Of a DNA stretch of 26,475 nt, positions 4,642-26,207 are shown piece by piece. The notes under the pieces are model-generated. The model was not told where the DNA came from, ran no database searches, and saw nothing but the letters and a program-made list of their open reading frames with translations. Position 1 is the first letter of the stretch, and every line of letters starts with the position of its first letter. This stretch comes from a virus: positions 1 through 26,475 of the IMG/VR virus record IMGVR_UViG_3300005664_000066. One strand, given 5' to 3'. A program made the position numbers and the translations under genes.

Positions 4642-5070
4642 TTAACAGCGAATGAAACCAACGGTGTATTCAATGGAACCGGCGGTCAGCGCGGCGGTGC
4701 CAATGGTTTGAATGATCTTGTCGCCAGCCGCCATGATATGCGGGAAAGCCAGCACGTTTGGCGTTCCTTCAACTGGCAGCGGCGTCAGGCAAGCATTGGC
4801 AACCAAGTTGGCAACCGCGCCTTGCGTTGCGGTCAGAAACTTGGTCAGCGCGCCCGTTGGGCCAACTGCAACCGTGGCGGAACCGCCAGAGGTGCAAGCC
4901 GTTTTGACCGTGGAGTGAAAGTCCACAACCTTCACTTTGTCGGACGCGGTGAAAATGTCCAGCGCGCCAACGGCGCCAGCGTCCTTGGTGAAATCGTAGC
5001 GAACACGTTTGTATTCAACGTGGTTGCCAAACGTGTTGCCAATCGCCTCATGTTTTTTCAGTGCAGTCAT
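4642..5070 (-). CDS. Putative capsid decoration or minor structural protein
   Basis: This 142-residue protein (MTALKKHEAIGNTFGNHVEY) is rich in small and beta-forming residues, with the end pattern ...TAALTAGSIEYTVGFIRC. Such short Ala/Gly/Thr-rich proteins encoded two genes after the major capsid gene are often head decoration proteins. No motif proves it; a small tail or neck protein is possible. Confidence 0.45.
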   Translation of the reverse strand: MTALKKHEAIGNTFGNHVEYKRVRYDFTKDAGAVGALDIFTASDKVKVVDFHSTVKTACTSGGSATVAVGPTGALTKFLTATQGAVANLVANACLTPLPVEGTPNVLAFPHIMAAGDKIIQTIGTAALTAGSIEYTVGFIRC

Positions 5071-5072
5071 GG

Positions 5073-5279
5073 TTAGTCGTTCCCTTCCGCGCTTTCAGGC
5101 GCATTCGTGTTTTCGGTTTCTTTTGGCTTTGGTCCACGCTTTGCCTTCGGTTCTTCAACCTCAACAATCGCGTAGTGGTGATAGCCTTGAGCATATGCCG
5201 TCACGCTCTTGACGTTTTCGACGGCATTGATTCTTTTCACCAACTCGCCAGCGTCCATAACGGAAATTGAAATGAACAT
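5073..5279 (-). CDS. Small hypothetical protein after the capsid gene
   Basis: The protein has 68 residues from the ATG at 5279 (MFISISVMDAGELVKRINAV), with GAAAGG about ten bases upstream; an earlier in-frame start lies in the capsid-gene spacer and lacks a good site. The N-terminal half looks like a compact beta/alpha fold. The C-terminal half is a charged low-complexity tail (KPKETENTNAPESAEGND). The stop is two bases from the next ATG. Function is unknown. Confidence 0.6.
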   Translation of the reverse strand: MFISISVMDAGELVKRINAVENVKSVTAYAQGYHHYAIVEVEEPKAKRGPKPKETENTNAPESAEGND

Positions 5280-5317
5280 GATATGTGGCCTTTCATGCAA
5301 CCAAACGCGCAATTGCG

Positions 5318-6190
5318 TTAGGTGTTGTAAATCCGAATATGTTTCGCGGCGCCTTCAAGTCCGACCTTCGCGCCAGCAATCATTTTTGCCGACAGGACAT
5401 AGCCGAATTGTTTGTTGGCGTGGAGCGAACTGATTTCAAATTCCGGTTCTTGTTGCAGAACCAGATAGAGGAAATCAGGGTGGAAAGCCAAAGCCAGTTG
5501 CGAGGTTTGGCCGGTTGGAGACAGTTGCGACATTGCCGCTGAGTTATCTTGCAGAATGTTGAAGTTGAATTTTTTCTGCAACATTTTGCCAGCGACAACC
5601 GGACGGTCATCAACGAAGTCACTGTCGGTCAGCGTTTGGCTGGACAACAGGTTGCCGTGATAAACCGGGTCAGCCAAGAGATACCAAGGGTCCATTTCTG
5701 GCCACTTTTTCTGACCGGCTTGAACGTTCAGCGCAATCAGTTGGCTTGCGTTGAAGTCCGTCACGCCAGTGTTCGACGTGGTCGGCGCGGCTGCAAGGCC
5801 ATACAGATATTCGTTGAGGCTGATAATCATTGCCTCAACAAGTCCCTGGCGAATCGTTGAATCTTGGCTTTGGATTTGGCTTTGCAGCGTCACGAGGTTT
5901 TCAATTTCGTAACCGGCGCTGATAACTTGGTCGGCGACAACTTCAACTTGCTGTGTTTGAAGCTTTTGCGTGGTGAAAACGCTGGTGTCATCAACACCAA
6001 CCTGACGGCGTTGCGCCGTTGGACGGATAATCTGACTGACCTTGACGCGGTCACCTTCGGCCAGAATTTGGCCTTGATATGCTCGGTTGACCAACGCGGC
6101 CAAACGGGCATTTTCCAAAAGTTGTGGAACGAAAACAGAAGACCAAAAAGCCTTCACTTGCGCGCGGACATCTTCCAATTGAGTAATCAA
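5318..6190 (-). CDS. Major capsid protein
   Basis: The protein has 290 residues and a probable TTG start at 6190, with GAAAGGGG eight bases upstream. The sequence has the layout of an HK97-fold coat protein without a delta domain: early FWSSVFVPQLLENARLAALV, then EGDRVKVSQI, a VFTTQKLQTQQVEVVADQ strand, a central WYLLADPVYHGNLL segment and a closing AKMIAGAKVGLEGAAKHIRI. It is preceded by a coiled-coil scaffold gene, the usual order. HK97-like lattice formation is family knowledge. Initiation at TTG and the overlapping alternative hairpins suggest tight translational control. Confidence 0.87.
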   Translation of the reverse strand: MITQLEDVRAQVKAFWSSVFVPQLLENARLAALVNRAYQGQILAEGDRVKVSQIIRPTAQRRQVGVDDTSVFTTQKLQTQQVEVVADQVISAGYEIENLVTLQSQIQSQDSTIRQGLVEAMIISLNEYLYGLAAAPTTSNTGVTDFNASQLIALNVQAGQKKWPEMDPWYLLADPVYHGNLLSSQTLTDSDFVDDRPVVAGKMLQKKFNFNILQDNSAAMSQLSPTGQTSQLALAFHPDFLYLVLQQEPEFEISSLHANKQFGYVLSAKMIAGAKVGLEGAAKHIRIYNT

Positions 6191-16939: not shown

Positions 16940-17721
16940 CCTATGACCTCATCGGGTTGCGTCGATTGTGGTTGGATTGTGCAACGTTCAGCGGCAATCA
17001 GATTCTCAACCTCGGTCACGGTGTCGGCTTTGAACAACAACACCTGACGCCGCTTGCGCGCCTTTGCATAGGAAACATAAAAAGATTCCATGCTGACTAT
17101 CGCGGTTTTAAAATGACGCCAGTCAGCGCCAAGCGCCGCCGATAGCGAGTTGGTCAAATCACCAAGTTTTGGTTTCGGTCCGCCGCCGTCAACGGTGCAT
17201 AGGCAATCGTCAAGAACGCTGAACGCTTTTGAAACGGCGACACTTGCCCTAGCCGCCGCCGTCCCGGCTTCTTTAAGTCTCTCAGTCTCTTTTCTCCTAG
17301 TCTCTCTATGTGCCCCGTCAGTGGCCCCGTCAGTGGCCCCGTCAGTGGCCCCGTCAGTGGCCCCGTCAGTGGCCCTATCGTCATCGCGCATGATTTGATA
17401 TTTATCGTAATTGCAAACGGTTATGACCGTTCCACAGTGGCCCCTTTTCATACTCAAAATTCCGTCTTTTTCGAGCATTTGAAGCTTCCGATCTATTGTG
17501 TTCTTGCTCACGTCGAACCGTTCGGCCAACTCGTTGCGTCCGGTCGCAACCTGACCACGCTCAAGCGTAACAAGCTGACGGCGCAAAGGTTCTAGGCCAC
17601 GCTCACGCCTTGCCCAAAGAACCAAGGTGCAAAGGACAATGAACGCAATTGGGTCAACGCCAACCCAACTGTTCAAAATTTTTCGGTGCAACTTGACCCA
17701 GCCGCCCGTTGGACGCGCCAT
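16936..17721 (-). CDS. Replication initiator-like protein (winged helix, DnaD/O type)
   Basis: The protein has 261 residues from the ATG at 17721. Its N-terminus GGWVKLHRKILNSWVGVDPI is the signature of phage replisome-organiser proteins. It continues with GQVATGRNELAERFDVSKNT and LQMLEKDGILSMK, a winged helix. Residues 117-137 are five ATDG repeats from a 12-bp tandem DNA repeat. The C-terminal half is basic and helical. By analogy with lambda O, the protein would bind an origin inside its own gene and load the replisome. It follows a Cro/CI-like gene in the leftward transcript. Confidence 0.72.
   Translation of the reverse strand: MARPTGGWVKLHRKILNSWVGVDPIAFIVLCTLVLWARRERGLEPLRRQLVTLERGQVATGRNELAERFDVSKNTIDRKLQMLEKDGILSMKRGHCGTVITVCNYDKYQIMRDDDRATDGATDGATDGATDGATDGAHRETRRKETERLKEAGTAAARASVAVSKAFSVLDDCLCTVDGGGPKPKLGDLTNSLSAALGADWRHFKTAIVSMESFYVSYAKARKRRQVLLFKADTVTEVENLIAAERCTIQPQSTQPDEVIG
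17312..17371 (-). repeat. Five perfect 12-bp tandem repeats inside the initiator gene (candidate origin iterons)
   Basis: The unit GCCCCGTCAGTG occurs five times without a change, followed by a degraded sixth copy (GCCCTATCGTCA). It codes for ATDG repeats on the minus strand. A pyrimidine-rich tract lies beside it at about 17270-17308. In lambda, iterons bound by O lie inside the O gene, so this is the best origin candidate in the window. Confidence 0.55.
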
Positions 17722-22539: not shown

Positions 22540-23070
22540 TCACCAAGGCGCCAGAAACCCCTTAACCCGCAAAGACCCGTGGCCACTATGGCTTCGGGTT
22601 TTTAAATAAACCCCGTCACCTTCGCGTCCGCTATCACTGCCAGTATTTCCCTCGACAGTTTGGAACCCGGAACGCGCCACGGCAATCACAATGCCAGCGT
22701 GGCCTTGCAGCGTTCCAACGTTGTTGGCGTCAACGTGTTGCCAAATCACAATGCAACCTTCATGCGGCTTGGCTAGGCGTTGTTCAACTGGCGTTTTGTT
22801 CCATACGGTCAAGCAATGTTCTGACGCGTGAAGGCGCGCTTTCGTTTCCAAGCCCAACCCCATGGCGCCGCCGAGAGTGTCAATGTAATTGACGCAAAAC
22901 TGAACGAACGCCATACACCACGCTTCGCCGGTCGCCTTGCCGTCAACGGTTTGCTGGAACTTTTCGACGGCCCAACCCGCGTTGCGCGAAGTCTCACGAA
23001 CGCCAACCCAACGCAAGGCTTCCAGCGCCAAAGCATTACACTTGGCGCGGCTGATTTGCGGGTATGTCAT
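22540..23070 (-). CDS. CHAP-domain endolysin
   Basis: The protein has 176 residues. Catalytic-type motifs are GEAWCMAFVQFC with C52, GHAGIVIAV with H124, and TVEGNTG with E140/N142, in the order and spacing of a CHAP amidase or endopeptidase. It has no signal peptide and no separate cell-wall binding domain, so release would need a holin. CHAP enzymes cut peptidoglycan peptides or the amide bond; which one applies here is unknown. The ATG at 23070 overlaps the previous stop. The 3' end also carries the terminator for the convergent plus-strand operon. Confidence 0.82.
   Translation of the reverse strand: MTYPQISRAKCNALALEALRWVGVRETSRNAGWAVEKFQQTVDGKATGEAWCMAFVQFCVNYIDTLGGAMGLGLETKARLHASEHCLTVWNKTPVEQRLAKPHEGCIVIWQHVDANNVGTLQGHAGIVIAVARSGFQTVEGNTGSDSGREGDGVYLKTRSHSGHGSLRVKGFLAPW
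22571..22603 (+). terminator. Intrinsic terminator of the rightward operon, inside the endolysin 3' end
   Basis: AAAGACCCG (22571-22579) pairs with CGGGTTTTT (22595-22603), with an inner GCCA/TGGC stem (22582-22585 with 22589-22592) and CTA at the tip. The T-run is on the plus strand, about 33 bases after the stop at 22538. The same bases code for residues near the endolysin C-terminus on the minus strand. Confidence 0.75.
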
Positions 23071-23312
23071 GGCGGCTGGCCTTGCGTCCGAACGAGAAAG
23101 TCAATCTTGTAGTCCATAGCTGCAAGCTTGGCTTTCACGTCAGAAAGTTGCTCGGCGACATTTTCCATTTTTTCAACGCGTTGTTGAAGCGTGTCAGCCT
23201 TGGCTTGAATAGCCGCAATCCAAAGAGCGCAACCGACAACGGCAGTGACAACCGAAGCGACCATGCCCAATGGAATGCGGGTATTCAAGTCAACAACGCT
23301 TAGCATTTGCAT
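23067..23312 (-). CDS. Membrane-anchored coiled-coil protein, lysis-cassette candidate
   Basis: The protein has 81 residues from the ATG at 23312 (MQMLSVVDLNTRIPLGMVAS). One transmembrane segment (about residues 16-37) is followed by a coiled coil (LQQRVEKMENVAEQLSDVKA; KLAAMDYKIDFLV). This layout is seen in XhlA-type accessory lysis proteins and some inner-membrane spanins. It overlaps the endolysin start (ATGA), supporting a lysis role. Which one is unknown. Confidence 0.6.
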   Translation of the reverse strand: MQMLSVVDLNTRIPLGMVASVVTAVVGCALWIAAIQAKADTLQQRVEKMENVAEQLSDVKAKLAAMDYKIDFLVRTQGQPP

Positions 23313-23514
23313 CGCATTTCTTTTTGAGGTTGTCGCGCAAATCAATCAGAGGACGCTTGTCCTTGAACAATTTGTAATTAGCGTGAGCGGCTTTCAGCTT
23401 CGCTTCGGCTTCCTTGCGTTCCTCTGGCGTCAGTTCTTTGAACAACGCAATGATTTCCCGAATCAGAGAAATTAGCGCCGGACCGTATTGGAACAAAAGC
23501 AAAAGCCATTGCAT
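23290..23514 (-). CDS. Small amphipathic membrane protein, possible holin
   Basis: The protein has 74 residues from the ATG at 23514 (MQWLLLLFQYGPALISLIRE). One hydrophobic N-terminal helix is followed by a long charged helix (FKELTPEERKEAEAKLKAAH) and a basic Cys-containing end. It overlaps the next gene by 23 bases. One membrane helix with a charged tail is compatible with a class III-type holin, but no family was recognised. Confidence 0.5.
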   Translation of the reverse strand: MQWLLLLFQYGPALISLIREIIALFKELTPEERKEAEAKLKAAHANYKLFKDKRPLIDLRDNLKKKCDANAKRC

Positions 23515-23517
23515 GAT

Positions 23518-24024
23518 TTACTCCAAGGTTGAAGTTGGCGCCGATAGCAACTGACGAATCTTGGCTTTCTTTGCCGCCGACCAAACGCCGACAGAGGACC
23601 AAACCCGCTTGTGGTCTTTGTCCAAAACGATTGTTGTTGGATAGCTGGACACGCCAAGCGATTGGCCTAGCGCTTCGCCGTCACAATCGTTCAGAACCGG
23701 ACCGTCAGCGGCGTAACGCTCAATCCAGTTGGCATAGTCGGACAACTCGCAGTCAATGGAAATTTCCAAAACTTGCGCGCGGTCGCCATGCCATTCCGTC
23801 GAAAGCGCTTTGACGTTTGGTGAGTTGTCCCGGCAATACCGGCAACCGTTGAAATAGAATTCGAGGACCATTGGCTTGCCGAGGTGAGCGGCGGTGTCAT
23901 ACCGACCGCCTTGGTCAGCCATATCCTGCAACGAGAAATGAACGGGTTCAGCTTGCGCCAGGGTCACGCAACCGGCCAAACCCATGGCGATGCCAACCAA
24001 GAGAAACAAACGCGCCAGATTCAT
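23518..24024 (-). CDS. Thioredoxin-fold (TlpA-like) lipoprotein
   Basis: This 168-residue protein begins MNLARLFLLVGIAMGLAGCV. The lipobox LAGC with Cys19 predicts lipid anchoring on the outer side of the inner membrane or in the outer membrane. The mature part is thioredoxin-like: VLEFYFNGCRYCRDNSP with active site C61-R-Y-C64, then SYPTTIVLD with the cis-proline P129. Extra cysteines are C92 and C114. Such proteins exchange disulfides in the periplasm. The start overlaps the upstream gene (ATGA), putting it in one operon with the Cys-rich lipoprotein and the lysis genes. Confidence 0.82.
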   Translation of the reverse strand: MNLARLFLLVGIAMGLAGCVTLAQAEPVHFSLQDMADQGGRYDTAAHLGKPMVLEFYFNGCRYCRDNSPNVKALSTEWHGDRAQVLEISIDCELSDYANWIERYAADGPVLNDCDGEALGQSLGVSSYPTTIVLDKDHKRVWSSVGVWSAAKKAKIRQLLSAPTSTLE

Positions 24025-24212
24025 GATTTTGCCCCTTTCTGGCGCCGTTTCAGAGCGGCGCGGCCCAAGATAACGAACACCTTTGGCGATTCAGCGACCA
24101 AATCGCAAAGGCAACGCAAAACTTCCTTGACTTGTGCGATTGACAAAGGCTGTTTCATGCCTTCCTTGGCGGTCACCGCCTTTGCCAAATCGTTCAGATT
24201 GTTGATTCTCAT
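24021..24212 (-). CDS. Small helical protein, faintly HU-like
   Basis: This 63-residue protein (MRINNLNDLAKAVTAKEGMK) has its ATG overlapping the previous stop (ATGA). The block LNDLAKAV..KEG....LSIAQVKEVLRCLCDLV resembles the helical first half of HU-type proteins, which occurs alone in several phages. It ends strongly basic (LGRAALKRRQKGAKS). DNA binding is possible, not shown. Confidence 0.5.
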   Translation of the reverse strand: MRINNLNDLAKAVTAKEGMKQPLSIAQVKEVLRCLCDLVAESPKVFVILGRAALKRRQKGAKS

Positions 24213-24640
24213 AGGCAACGCAATCTGTCGCCTAGCGTCCCGTCCGGCGCTTGGCTGTATTCAATCGCGTGGCATTGCGACCAATTGACGAAAGGCTTGC
24301 AGCTTCCGCCGGGACAACCACCGCCGTCACCGCCGTCAACGTGACCGTCATTGCCGCCGTCCACGGTTCCGCCGTCATCGTCAGACTTGCAACCGCATTC
24401 ACAACCCGGTTCGCAATCGCAAGCGCCCATGGCGCAATCGTCACCGTCACAACCGTCCTCACAACAAACGGTTGGACACTCGCAATCGGTGCAAATGCAA
24501 CTGCCGTCCTCGTAACACTCGCAGGTGTTACAAATGCAACCGTCCTCAGCCGGTTCGTCCGGTTGGGCTTTGCCTTGGTTGAAGTCACCGCCGCACGAAA
24601 CAAGAAATAGCGCCGCCAAGGCGCAAAGAAACTTGTTCAT
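24209..24640 (-). CDS. Extremely cysteine-rich lipoprotein
   Basis: The protein has 143 residues from ATG at 24640, with AAAGGGG upstream. The signal peptide MNKFLCALAALFLVSC has the lipobox LVSC, Cys16. It has 23 cysteines in total, 17 of them in residues 35-84, mostly as CxC and CxxC pairs between Asp and Glu. The first part shows an imperfect repeat (GCICNTCECYEDG then SCICTDCECP). A Gly/Asp linker follows (residues 87-110), then four more cysteines. Metal binding or a disulfide-rich surface protein are the two readable options. It is encoded one coupled gene before the thioredoxin-like lipoprotein. Confidence 0.75.
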   Translation of the reverse strand: MNKFLCALAALFLVSCGGDFNQGKAQPDEPAEDGCICNTCECYEDGSCICTDCECPTVCCEDGCDGDDCAMGACDCEPGCECGCKSDDDGGTVDGGNDGHVDGGDGGGCPGGSCKPFVNWSQCHAIEYSQAPDGTLGDRLRCL

Positions 24641-24643
24641 TGC

Positions 24644-24832
24644 TCAACCCCTTTCTTTGCGATGGACCAAACGGAAAATGGTTCCGGCTTTCGGAATTTT
24701 CGTGGTAATGCGACCGCGCAAACCGTGGCGCACGTTCAGATAGTCACCGTCATCAATTGTTTCTTTGACGAACCAGCAACGGCGGAAAAAAATGTTATGT
24801 GGAGTTTTGTAGACGACGCGAACAAGTTTCAT
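24644..24832 (-). CDS. Small basic beta-rich protein
   Basis: The protein has 62 residues from ATG at 24832 (MKLVRVVYKTPHNIFFRRCW), with GGGGGG upstream inside a hairpin. It reads as a five-stranded SH3/KOW-like barrel (VRHGLRGRITTKIPKAGTIF). It is very basic at the end. Nucleic-acid or protein binding is possible. It is the first gene of the run leading to the lysis genes. Confidence 0.5.
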   Translation of the reverse strand: MKLVRVVYKTPHNIFFRRCWFVKETIDDGDYLNVRHGLRGRITTKIPKAGTIFRLVHRKERG

Positions 24833-24833
24833 A

Positions 24834-24856
24834 GTGCCCCCCGTTGAGAGGGGCAC
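24834..24856 (-). promoter_or_regulatory. Hairpin over the ribosome binding site of the 24832 gene
   Basis: GTGCCCC (24834-24840) pairs with GGGGCAC (24850-24856) around a nine-base loop. On the minus-strand RNA the second arm contains most of the GGGGGG Shine-Dalgarno and ends one base before the ATG. No T-run follows, so translation control is likelier than termination. Confidence 0.45.
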
Positions 24857-24872
24857 CACAAAAGGGTGACCC

Positions 24873-25877
24873 TCAGTTTCTCATACACTGACTAAAGCGC
24901 TGATATTTTTCGTGGCAGCTTTCTTTAGTATATGGCACCGCTGGCGAATCAACAATACACTCAGACAACTCCAAATAGAGTTGCTGGCAATCAAGAGGTT
25001 GCGGCGGCGTGGTCGGTTCAACCTCGAAAAACAATGCCGCGTCACCGGGTTCATTGGCCAAGCGGTTGCAACCTTGTTTTGACCAAGCGAAGCCGCCAAG
25101 GCCCCAACTTGTGCCCCAACTATTTGCAATCAGAAACTCATAGCCGCCGCCGCTCGGCGCCGGACGATAACCAACCAACGTGACCATATGGTTGATTGAG
25201 CGTGAGTTACAGCCGGTAATCCGACCTTCGCCGTTTGGCGAGAAAGAACCGCCAGCGGCAACGGTCACCGCCAAGGCGCCCTTGTGATAAATGGCGGCGC
25301 GTAGGTCATCGGGCGTTGGCGCCGTTGAGCTATTGGCACCAACCATGGACCAACTCACCGGCTGGCTGGCTTTCGGCTTGTTGCAAGCATACCGGCTTGA
25401 CGCGCGATAGGGGCAATCAACTTCAAGTGACTGGCCTTTCTCAACTTCATAACGCCCGTCCATAAAGCCGCCGTTGCAACCGTATGCGGTCCTGTCATTC
25501 ACAAGCGTGTCTTGTTCAGCAAGGTCAAGCGCCAGCACGTTGCCAGCTTTCAGCCAAGCTGATTCATGCGCCTTGGTGCGAGCAAATGCCCAACACGAAC
25601 CGCACGAACCTTGGTTGACGATTGGCGTTGTCAAACCGTGGTCACGCAAGTCATACGCTTCCGGCAACTGAGCAATTTCAGATTGCGTTGGCTTCCAATA
25701 TGACGCGCCAAGCGGACCGCCTTCGCGTGGTCCAAGATAGCCGGTCGCATAGCGCCGACCTTCAATGACCGTCGAAAGGTTTGGTTCTAAGGCGGCGTCA
25801 AATGGCGCGGCGTATGCCTCACCGCAAGCGACAACCGAAAATGCAAAAGCCAAAAGAAGATTTTTGAAACGGCTCAT
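24873..25877 (-). CDS. Secreted papain-family (C1A) cysteine protease with C-terminal twin CX9C motif
   Basis: The protein has 334 residues from ATG at 25877 (MSRFKNLLLAFAFSVVACGE), with GGGGGA upstream. A signal peptide ends at AYA/AP (residue 23/24); VVAC at 15-18 could instead be a lipobox. A short spacer follows, then the papain domain: YDLRDHGLTTPIVNQGSCGS with oxyanion Q89, catalytic C95 in GSCWAFA, H230 in NHMVTLVGY and N252 in ANSWGTSWG. GCNGGFMDG is also typical. The end has C297-x9-C307 and C321-x9-C331. The spacer may be too short for a full inhibitory propeptide. Likely target: host envelope or incoming proteins; unknown. Confidence 0.88.
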   Translation of the reverse strand: MSRFKNLLLAFAFSVVACGEAYAAPFDAALEPNLSTVIEGRRYATGYLGPREGGPLGASYWKPTQSEIAQLPEAYDLRDHGLTTPIVNQGSCGSCWAFARTKAHESAWLKAGNVLALDLAEQDTLVNDRTAYGCNGGFMDGRYEVEKGQSLEVDCPYRASSRYACNKPKASQPVSWSMVGANSSTAPTPDDLRAAIYHKGALAVTVAAGGSFSPNGEGRITGCNSRSINHMVTLVGYRPAPSGGGYEFLIANSWGTSWGLGGFAWSKQGCNRLANEPGDAALFFEVEPTTPPQPLDCQQLYLELSECIVDSPAVPYTKESCHEKYQRFSQCMRN

Positions 25878-25922: not shown

Positions 25923-26207
25923 TTACGCTTGCTTGAGCGTTTTGAGCGCTTCAACCGCCGCGTTCGCGTCAATCGCCAAACCGGCAAAGTCATCAATCAG
26001 CGTGTCCAACTCAGCGGCGTCAACGTCTTTCATTTCAGAAATGACTTGTTCCGCGCCTTGCACCGCCGCCATGGTTGCTTTGATTGGCGCAAGCATATGG
26101 CGAGCGTCCAGCAAATTCAGCTTGCCGTCAGCGCAAGATTTGACAACGGCAACGCAATACGAACGACCGGCGGCAATGACTTCGCGCGTTTCTTTAATCG
26201 TACTCAT
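25923..26207 (-). CDS. Small helical hypothetical protein
   Basis: The protein has 94 residues from ATG at 26207, with AGAGG eight bases upstream. It begins MSTIKETREVIAAGRSYCVA and is helical and acidic (AEQVISEMKDVDAAELDTLI; AGLAIDANAAVEALKTLKQA). It lies 45 bases upstream of the protease gene. No family was recognised; a cytoplasmic role is likely because no signal peptide is present. Confidence 0.6.
   Translation of the reverse strand: MSTIKETREVIAAGRSYCVAVVKSCADGKLNLLDARHMLAPIKATMAAVQGAEQVISEMKDVDAAELDTLIDDFAGLAIDANAAVEALKTLKQA

Follow-up and report, generated by a model that had tools for sequence, protein, structure and literature searches.

Gene content and order at the locus

The window, i.e. 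the whole stretch of DNA analysed, is a viral record of 26,475 bases from IMG/VR. The genes it carries, for the large and small terminase subunits, the major head protein and, in part, the tape measure protein, mark it as a tailed phage whose record is incomplete, breaking off at base 1 inside the last of these genes. The terminase is about 25% identical to those of named phages; the window's capsid and tail protein have no match to named phages, and no tRNA genes were found in a search for clues to the host. The segment of interest lies on the minus strand and runs from 26201 to 22540. At its core are genes for a papain-type protease, a Cys-rich lipoprotein and a TlpA-like lipoprotein, which are present on the minus strand at 25877-23518, where a first-pass annotation of the sequence had placed them. 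The genes of the segment, in their order on the minus strand, are given below; L002 and L003 are two other viral records that hold the same three genes.

25923-26201, minus: small helical protein preceding the protease, of a family that recurs near viral papains
24873-25877, minus: exported papain-type (C1A) cysteine protease (PF00112) with a C-terminal twin CX9C helical hairpin
24644-24832, minus: small conserved open reading frame (ORF), 62 aa, 83% identical to its L002 counterpart over 60 aligned residues, absent from L003
24209-24640, minus: Cys-rich lipoprotein of no known family, with the motif CxCxxCECxxDGxCxCxDCxC, recognised by sequence, lipobox and conservation in L002 and L003
24021-24218, minus: small ORF, 65 aa, overlapping both neighbours, present in L002 and not in L003
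23518-24024, minus: TlpA/ResA-like thiol-disulfide oxidoreductase lipoprotein (AhpC-TSA, PF00578, E 2e-11; Redoxin, PF08534, E 5.9e-9)
23290-23514, minus: small membrane protein with a hydrophobic N-terminus, holin candidate, of a family found near the papain in about nine phages
23067-23312, minus: membrane segment (hydrophobic 17-35) plus coiled coil, candidate i-spanin or holin accessory
22540-23070, minus: CHAP-type endolysin, last gene of the operon (PF05257, E 8.7e-6; phrog_9589 endolysin, E 1.2e-8), a modest assignment at 26.6 bits against a cut-off of 26

From the papain to the endolysin, adjacent genes overlap or are separated by gaps of 40 bp or less, and a consensus scan of the minus strand found no promoter-like site within this stretch. 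The simplest reading of such packing is one late operon with the endolysin at its end; an operon shared with the endolysin, as judged by packing and strand, would place the genes in a phage lysis module. The coupling of the three genes described in the first-pass annotation is amended in one respect: the packing is indeed tight, but the ORFs at 24644-24832 and 24021-24218 intervene, both in the window and in L002. As for the smaller neighbours, the window and L002 members of the 23290-23514 family have two cysteines near the C-terminus, and the coiled-coil protein gives a weak Rz-like match (phrog_214, E 0.042). Relatives of the small helical protein at 25923-26201 also lie near papains, on either strand, in L002, L004, L005, L006, L007, L024, L025, L028 and L033.

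The protease and the two lipoproteins

The protease (334 aa) matches Peptidase_C1 at E 1.1e-34, with 120.9 bits against a cut-off of 20.7. The complete Q-C-H-N active site claimed for it by the first-pass annotation is in place, and its residues Q89, C95, H230 and N252 are identical in 46 of 46 aligned, non-redundant viral papains, as are C92, C134 and C165. An AlphaFold (AF2) model with a mean pLDDT of 85 has a cathepsin fold resembling cathepsins K, L and S, and Foldseek returns a best E of 3.3e-18 and a TM-score by target of 0.84. By domain, catalytic residues and modelled fold, the protein is therefore assigned to Peptidase C1A, the group of papain and of cathepsins K, L and S, and its enzymatic activity is predicted. 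It differs from these in being encoded by a phage, in its placement by endolysins and in its short N-terminal segment; the I29 inhibitor propeptide, which is common in C1A and not strictly defining, has no Pfam match in the protease. A further difference is the C-terminal hairpin, formed in the AF2 model by helices 297-308 and 321-333 and bearing the twin CX9C cysteines C297/C307 and C321/C331, which is shared by the window and L002 proteases; the C-terminal end of the L003 protease differs in sequence. The signal of the window protease is ambiguous, with either a lipoprotein signal (SVVAC) or a signal peptidase I cut (AYA), and the proteases of L002, L003 and L004 have no lipobox. A bacterial source for the protease was considered and rejected, the nearest genome matches being no more than 39% identical over the matched segment, among the matches listed; the bacterial neighbourhoods inspected (L058, L063 and L111, three in all) are unlike prophages.

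The precursor of the Cys-rich lipoprotein (143 aa) does contain the 23 cysteines first counted in it; its lipobox is LVSC, and the mature form would keep 22 of them, including the acylated one. It has no match among Pfam families. A metallothionein family was rejected for lack of a Pfam match even at E 10, a test that composition filters may weaken. The reading frame is not an annotation artefact: the protein is conserved despite saturation at its synonymous sites.

The TlpA-like lipoprotein (168 aa, lipobox LAGC) bears the CRYC motif and cis-Pro attributed to it earlier, as C61-R-Y-C64 and P129, and so has a thioredoxin-fold domain with both hallmarks. It matches DsbE/ResA structures by sequence, and its CxxC, P129, C92 and C114 are invariant among the three sequences of the window, L002 and L003. 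The likeness to TlpA, ResA and DsbE thus extends to fold family, CxxC, cis-Pro and lipoprotein nature. On the other hand, this protein is phage-encoded beside a protease, carries the additional invariant C92 and C114, and scores below the curated cut-off of every NCBIfam equivalog (ResA, TlpA, DsbE). Its structure model, made from three sequences only, is poor (pLDDT 54) and was set aside.

Distribution of the set and of viral papains

The first-pass annotation had treated the three genes as one unit and had proposed co-occurrence in other phages as a check; the set survives it, since L002 and L003 carry all three genes with their order unchanged. The phage of L002 is related to that of the window along the whole record, and the protease (79% identical) and TlpA-like protein (72%) rank with the most conserved proteins of the pair, compared with 55% for the terminase and 47% for the major head protein. 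The L003 record (39.6 kb) is otherwise unrelated: tblastn against the window and the L002 record finds the papain and TlpA-like proteins only, the Cys-rich protein being related to those of the window and L002 by direct alignment, and here the three genes are contiguous, without small genes between them. Chance association was ruled out by this shared order in a record with no other shared protein. For the same reason, the three genes appear to behave as a mobile cassette, a reading based on three records, of which two are related. Comparison of the window genes with their L002 and L003 relatives gives pS of 0.66-0.86, near or at saturation, against pN of 0.17-0.40, and all three proteins are thus under protein-level constraint in these relatives. 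Alignment searches of 2.9 million viral contigs found no carriers of the TlpA-like or Cys-rich proteins beyond L002 and L003, and scanning the DNA of the viral collection for the TlpA-family motif YPTTIVLD recovered the same two records only; in viral contigs, both families are seen only with the papain.

The papain is far more widespread. A profile search of the viral collection identifies it in 54 viral contigs, a few of which resemble eukaryotic-virus or other non-phage records (e.g. L046 and L055). Signal sequences are present in nearly all of the 46 non-redundant viral papains and a possible lipobox in about a third. When 47 papain records were searched whole, near-identical ones having been removed, a PF00578 protein above cut-off was found in the window, L002 and L003 only, and the record with the next closest protease, L004, has no TlpA-like gene. 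Since most viral papains are without it, the TlpA-like partner cannot be a general requirement for them.

Endolysin families were also searched in the papain records, the CHAP domain of the window being taken from Pfam and PHROG in a search confined to the window. Of the 28 records having an endolysin, 19 have it no more than 2.5 kb from the papain (on the same strand in 15), compared with a mean of 4.0 and a maximum of 12 in 20,000 trials of random placement. With one clade collapsed, the count is 13 of 22 against 3.1 expected, a figure that may still be too high through kinship between the records that are left. The endolysin is farther away in nine of the 28, one of which, L004, is counted as distant through an artefact of the record ends, as its protease runs across them, with genes for a small membrane protein and an amidase coming next. 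The neighbouring endolysins are of unrelated kinds (CHAP, M15, GH24, GH108 and amidase), an argument for more than one origin of the association. Export and a tie to lysis, both proposed from the window alone, thus gain support from signal sequences in nearly all relatives and from endolysin proximity across unrelated phages.

Other exported proteins accompany the papain elsewhere. In six non-identical loci (L039, L040, L041, L044, L047 and L048), the gene immediately upstream of the papain encodes an amidase, and one for an exported HExxH protein, weakly M48-like in one member, lies 55-71 bases downstream (e.g. L040:6337-7158, L047:7237-8043 and L044:7249-8010), giving a three-enzyme set. In L038, a trypsin-family protease gene (5119-5976; Pfam E 2.9e-17) ends seven bases before the papain, and its product, like the window papain, has a twin CX9C segment at the C-terminus. 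An exported helical family of about 230-280 aa, with no Pfam or PHROG match in the members tested, adjoins the papain in about ten loci (L005, L007, L017, L018, L020, L021, L023, L024, L028 and L050). In L034 (6932-7168, 14 bases after) and L050 (8090-8395), the papain is followed by an exported Cys-rich protein; these phages have no nearby TlpA-like gene, and their Cys-rich proteins are grouped by composition, not homology. Because the HExxH, trypsin-like, helical and Cys-rich partners differ between loci, the protease is the constant element and its exported neighbours the variable one.

Proposed role in phage exit and competing explanations

We hold with moderate confidence that the set is a late lysis-module cassette that would add digestion of envelope proteins to the usual digestion of the cell wall. 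The papain would be exported to the periplasm via the Sec pathway and would cleave host proteins, most likely of the outer membrane or periplasm, that hold the envelope together or would otherwise capture progeny or bind them again. In the oxidising periplasm, disulfides are reduced or exchanged by proteins of the TlpA/ResA type, and a C1 protease works only with its thiolate free. Spanin function in lambda and T4 requires disulfides, which in lambda are made via the host Dsb system (PMC6139136, PMC5295617). Together, these points would account for a phage that brings its own oxidoreductase for its protease. The TlpA-like lipoprotein, predicted to reside in the outer membrane, would form or re-reduce disulfides, and such thiol exchange would allow the protease, which has several structural disulfides as well as the reactive Cys95, to be folded and active in the oxidising compartment. 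The Cys-rich lipoprotein may work with it as a thiol buffer, a metal sink or a cognate substrate, although our confidence in any such particular task is much lower than in the lysis-linked envelope role. These data are compatible with the earlier suggestion, in which the thioredoxin protein would fold or reduce its two companions; nothing was found in favour of a block to superinfection, the other role then suggested. One unit, export and the tie to lysis are all supported. The lysis role we infer from gene position; expression timing, protein location, targets and the redox relation of the three proteins are likewise inferred.

Lysis by phages of Gram-negative hosts is usually described as the work of a holin, an endolysin and a spanin. 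Yet a survey of 677 phages detected no spanin in 91 of them (PMC6139136). An exported protease that recurs next to endolysins of several unrelated kinds is a concrete candidate for a further step, or an alternative one, in breaking the envelope. The thiol cassette would provide a secreted cysteine protease with redox help encoded by the phage itself. Since the trio recurs in an unrelated phage and papains adjoin lysis enzymes elsewhere, the genomic evidence points to an undescribed protein-cutting step in the exit of some phages. More tentatively, and as a possibility rather than an expectation, there may be a class of lysis systems in which an exported papain, often with a second exported protease, breaches the envelope by proteolysis, helping or replacing spanins, with its activity set in the present case by a phage-borne thiol-disulfide pair. 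The individual folds are known; it is the setting, a variant of the phage lysis module with an exported protease and thiol lipoproteins, that differs. A cysteine protease has likewise been predicted beside the holins of transposable prophages of Leptospira, where it was read as a putative endolysin (PMC8705779), but the available part of that report states no family for it and describes no thiol lipoproteins. The 'Peptidase_C1' proteins of uncultured Caudovirales in BFVD have the same fold and are database annotations without described function or context. In agreement with the novelty first claimed for the combination, a literature search, from which most preprints and subscription papers were absent, found neither the cassette nor a papain recurring in lysis modules described before.

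Position alone does not prove a role in lysis, because the boundary between tail and lysis genes is a common landing site for accessory genes. The set might accordingly be a moron cassette that alters the host surface, by receptor removal or phage exclusion, and takes no part in lysis. Its movement between unrelated phages and its location near an integrase gene in L003 fit this view, as does the general knowledge that lipoproteins near phage lysis genes often serve superinfection exclusion. We nevertheless consider it unlikely, given the tight packing with the endolysin in one operon lacking a minus-strand promoter-like site, the papains near endolysins in many lineages and the lack of a PADLOC match, on which ground a defence system was also rejected. 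The protease could also act outside the cell after lysis, like a receptor-destroying enzyme, freeing progeny from debris, matrix or surface receptors, with the lipoproteins merely maturing it. Signal sequences without a lipobox in the L002, L003 and L004 proteases agree with such release, and the neighbouring exported HExxH and trypsin-like proteases resemble a general digestive set; however, the third or so of viral papains with a possible lipobox would remain membrane-bound, and we regard this explanation as quite improbable.

A spanin-like set, in which the Cys-rich lipoprotein would be the outer-membrane subunit, 23067-23312 the inner-membrane coiled-coil subunit, the TlpA-like protein the maker of their disulfides and the protease a separate helper, is very doubtful: two-component spanins do need intermolecular disulfides via the host Dsb system (PMC6139136, PMC5295617), and the window resembles Rz/Rz1 in having a lipoprotein and a coiled-coil membrane protein, the latter with its weak Rz-like match, by the endolysin, but there is no recognisable, Pro-rich o-spanin, a protease and a thiol oxidoreductase being present instead, the coiled-coil protein has no periplasmic Cys, and the L003 protein at 5032-5334 is at most a tentative counterpart of it. 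The Cys-rich and TlpA-like proteins are the sole clear lipoproteins of the lysis region in both the window and L003, the exceptions in the window being the possible lipobox of the protease and a sequence resembling a lipobox within the membrane segment of the 23067-23312 protein. The two clear lipoproteins have a residue other than Asp after the lipid Cys, and outer-membrane sorting is predicted.

Two minor observations concern other parts of the records. The large terminase of L003 (9895-12288) is apparently split by an intein-like segment, and the window has at 17308-17398 a tandem repeat encoding TDGATDGATDG inside a DnaD-like helicase loader gene.
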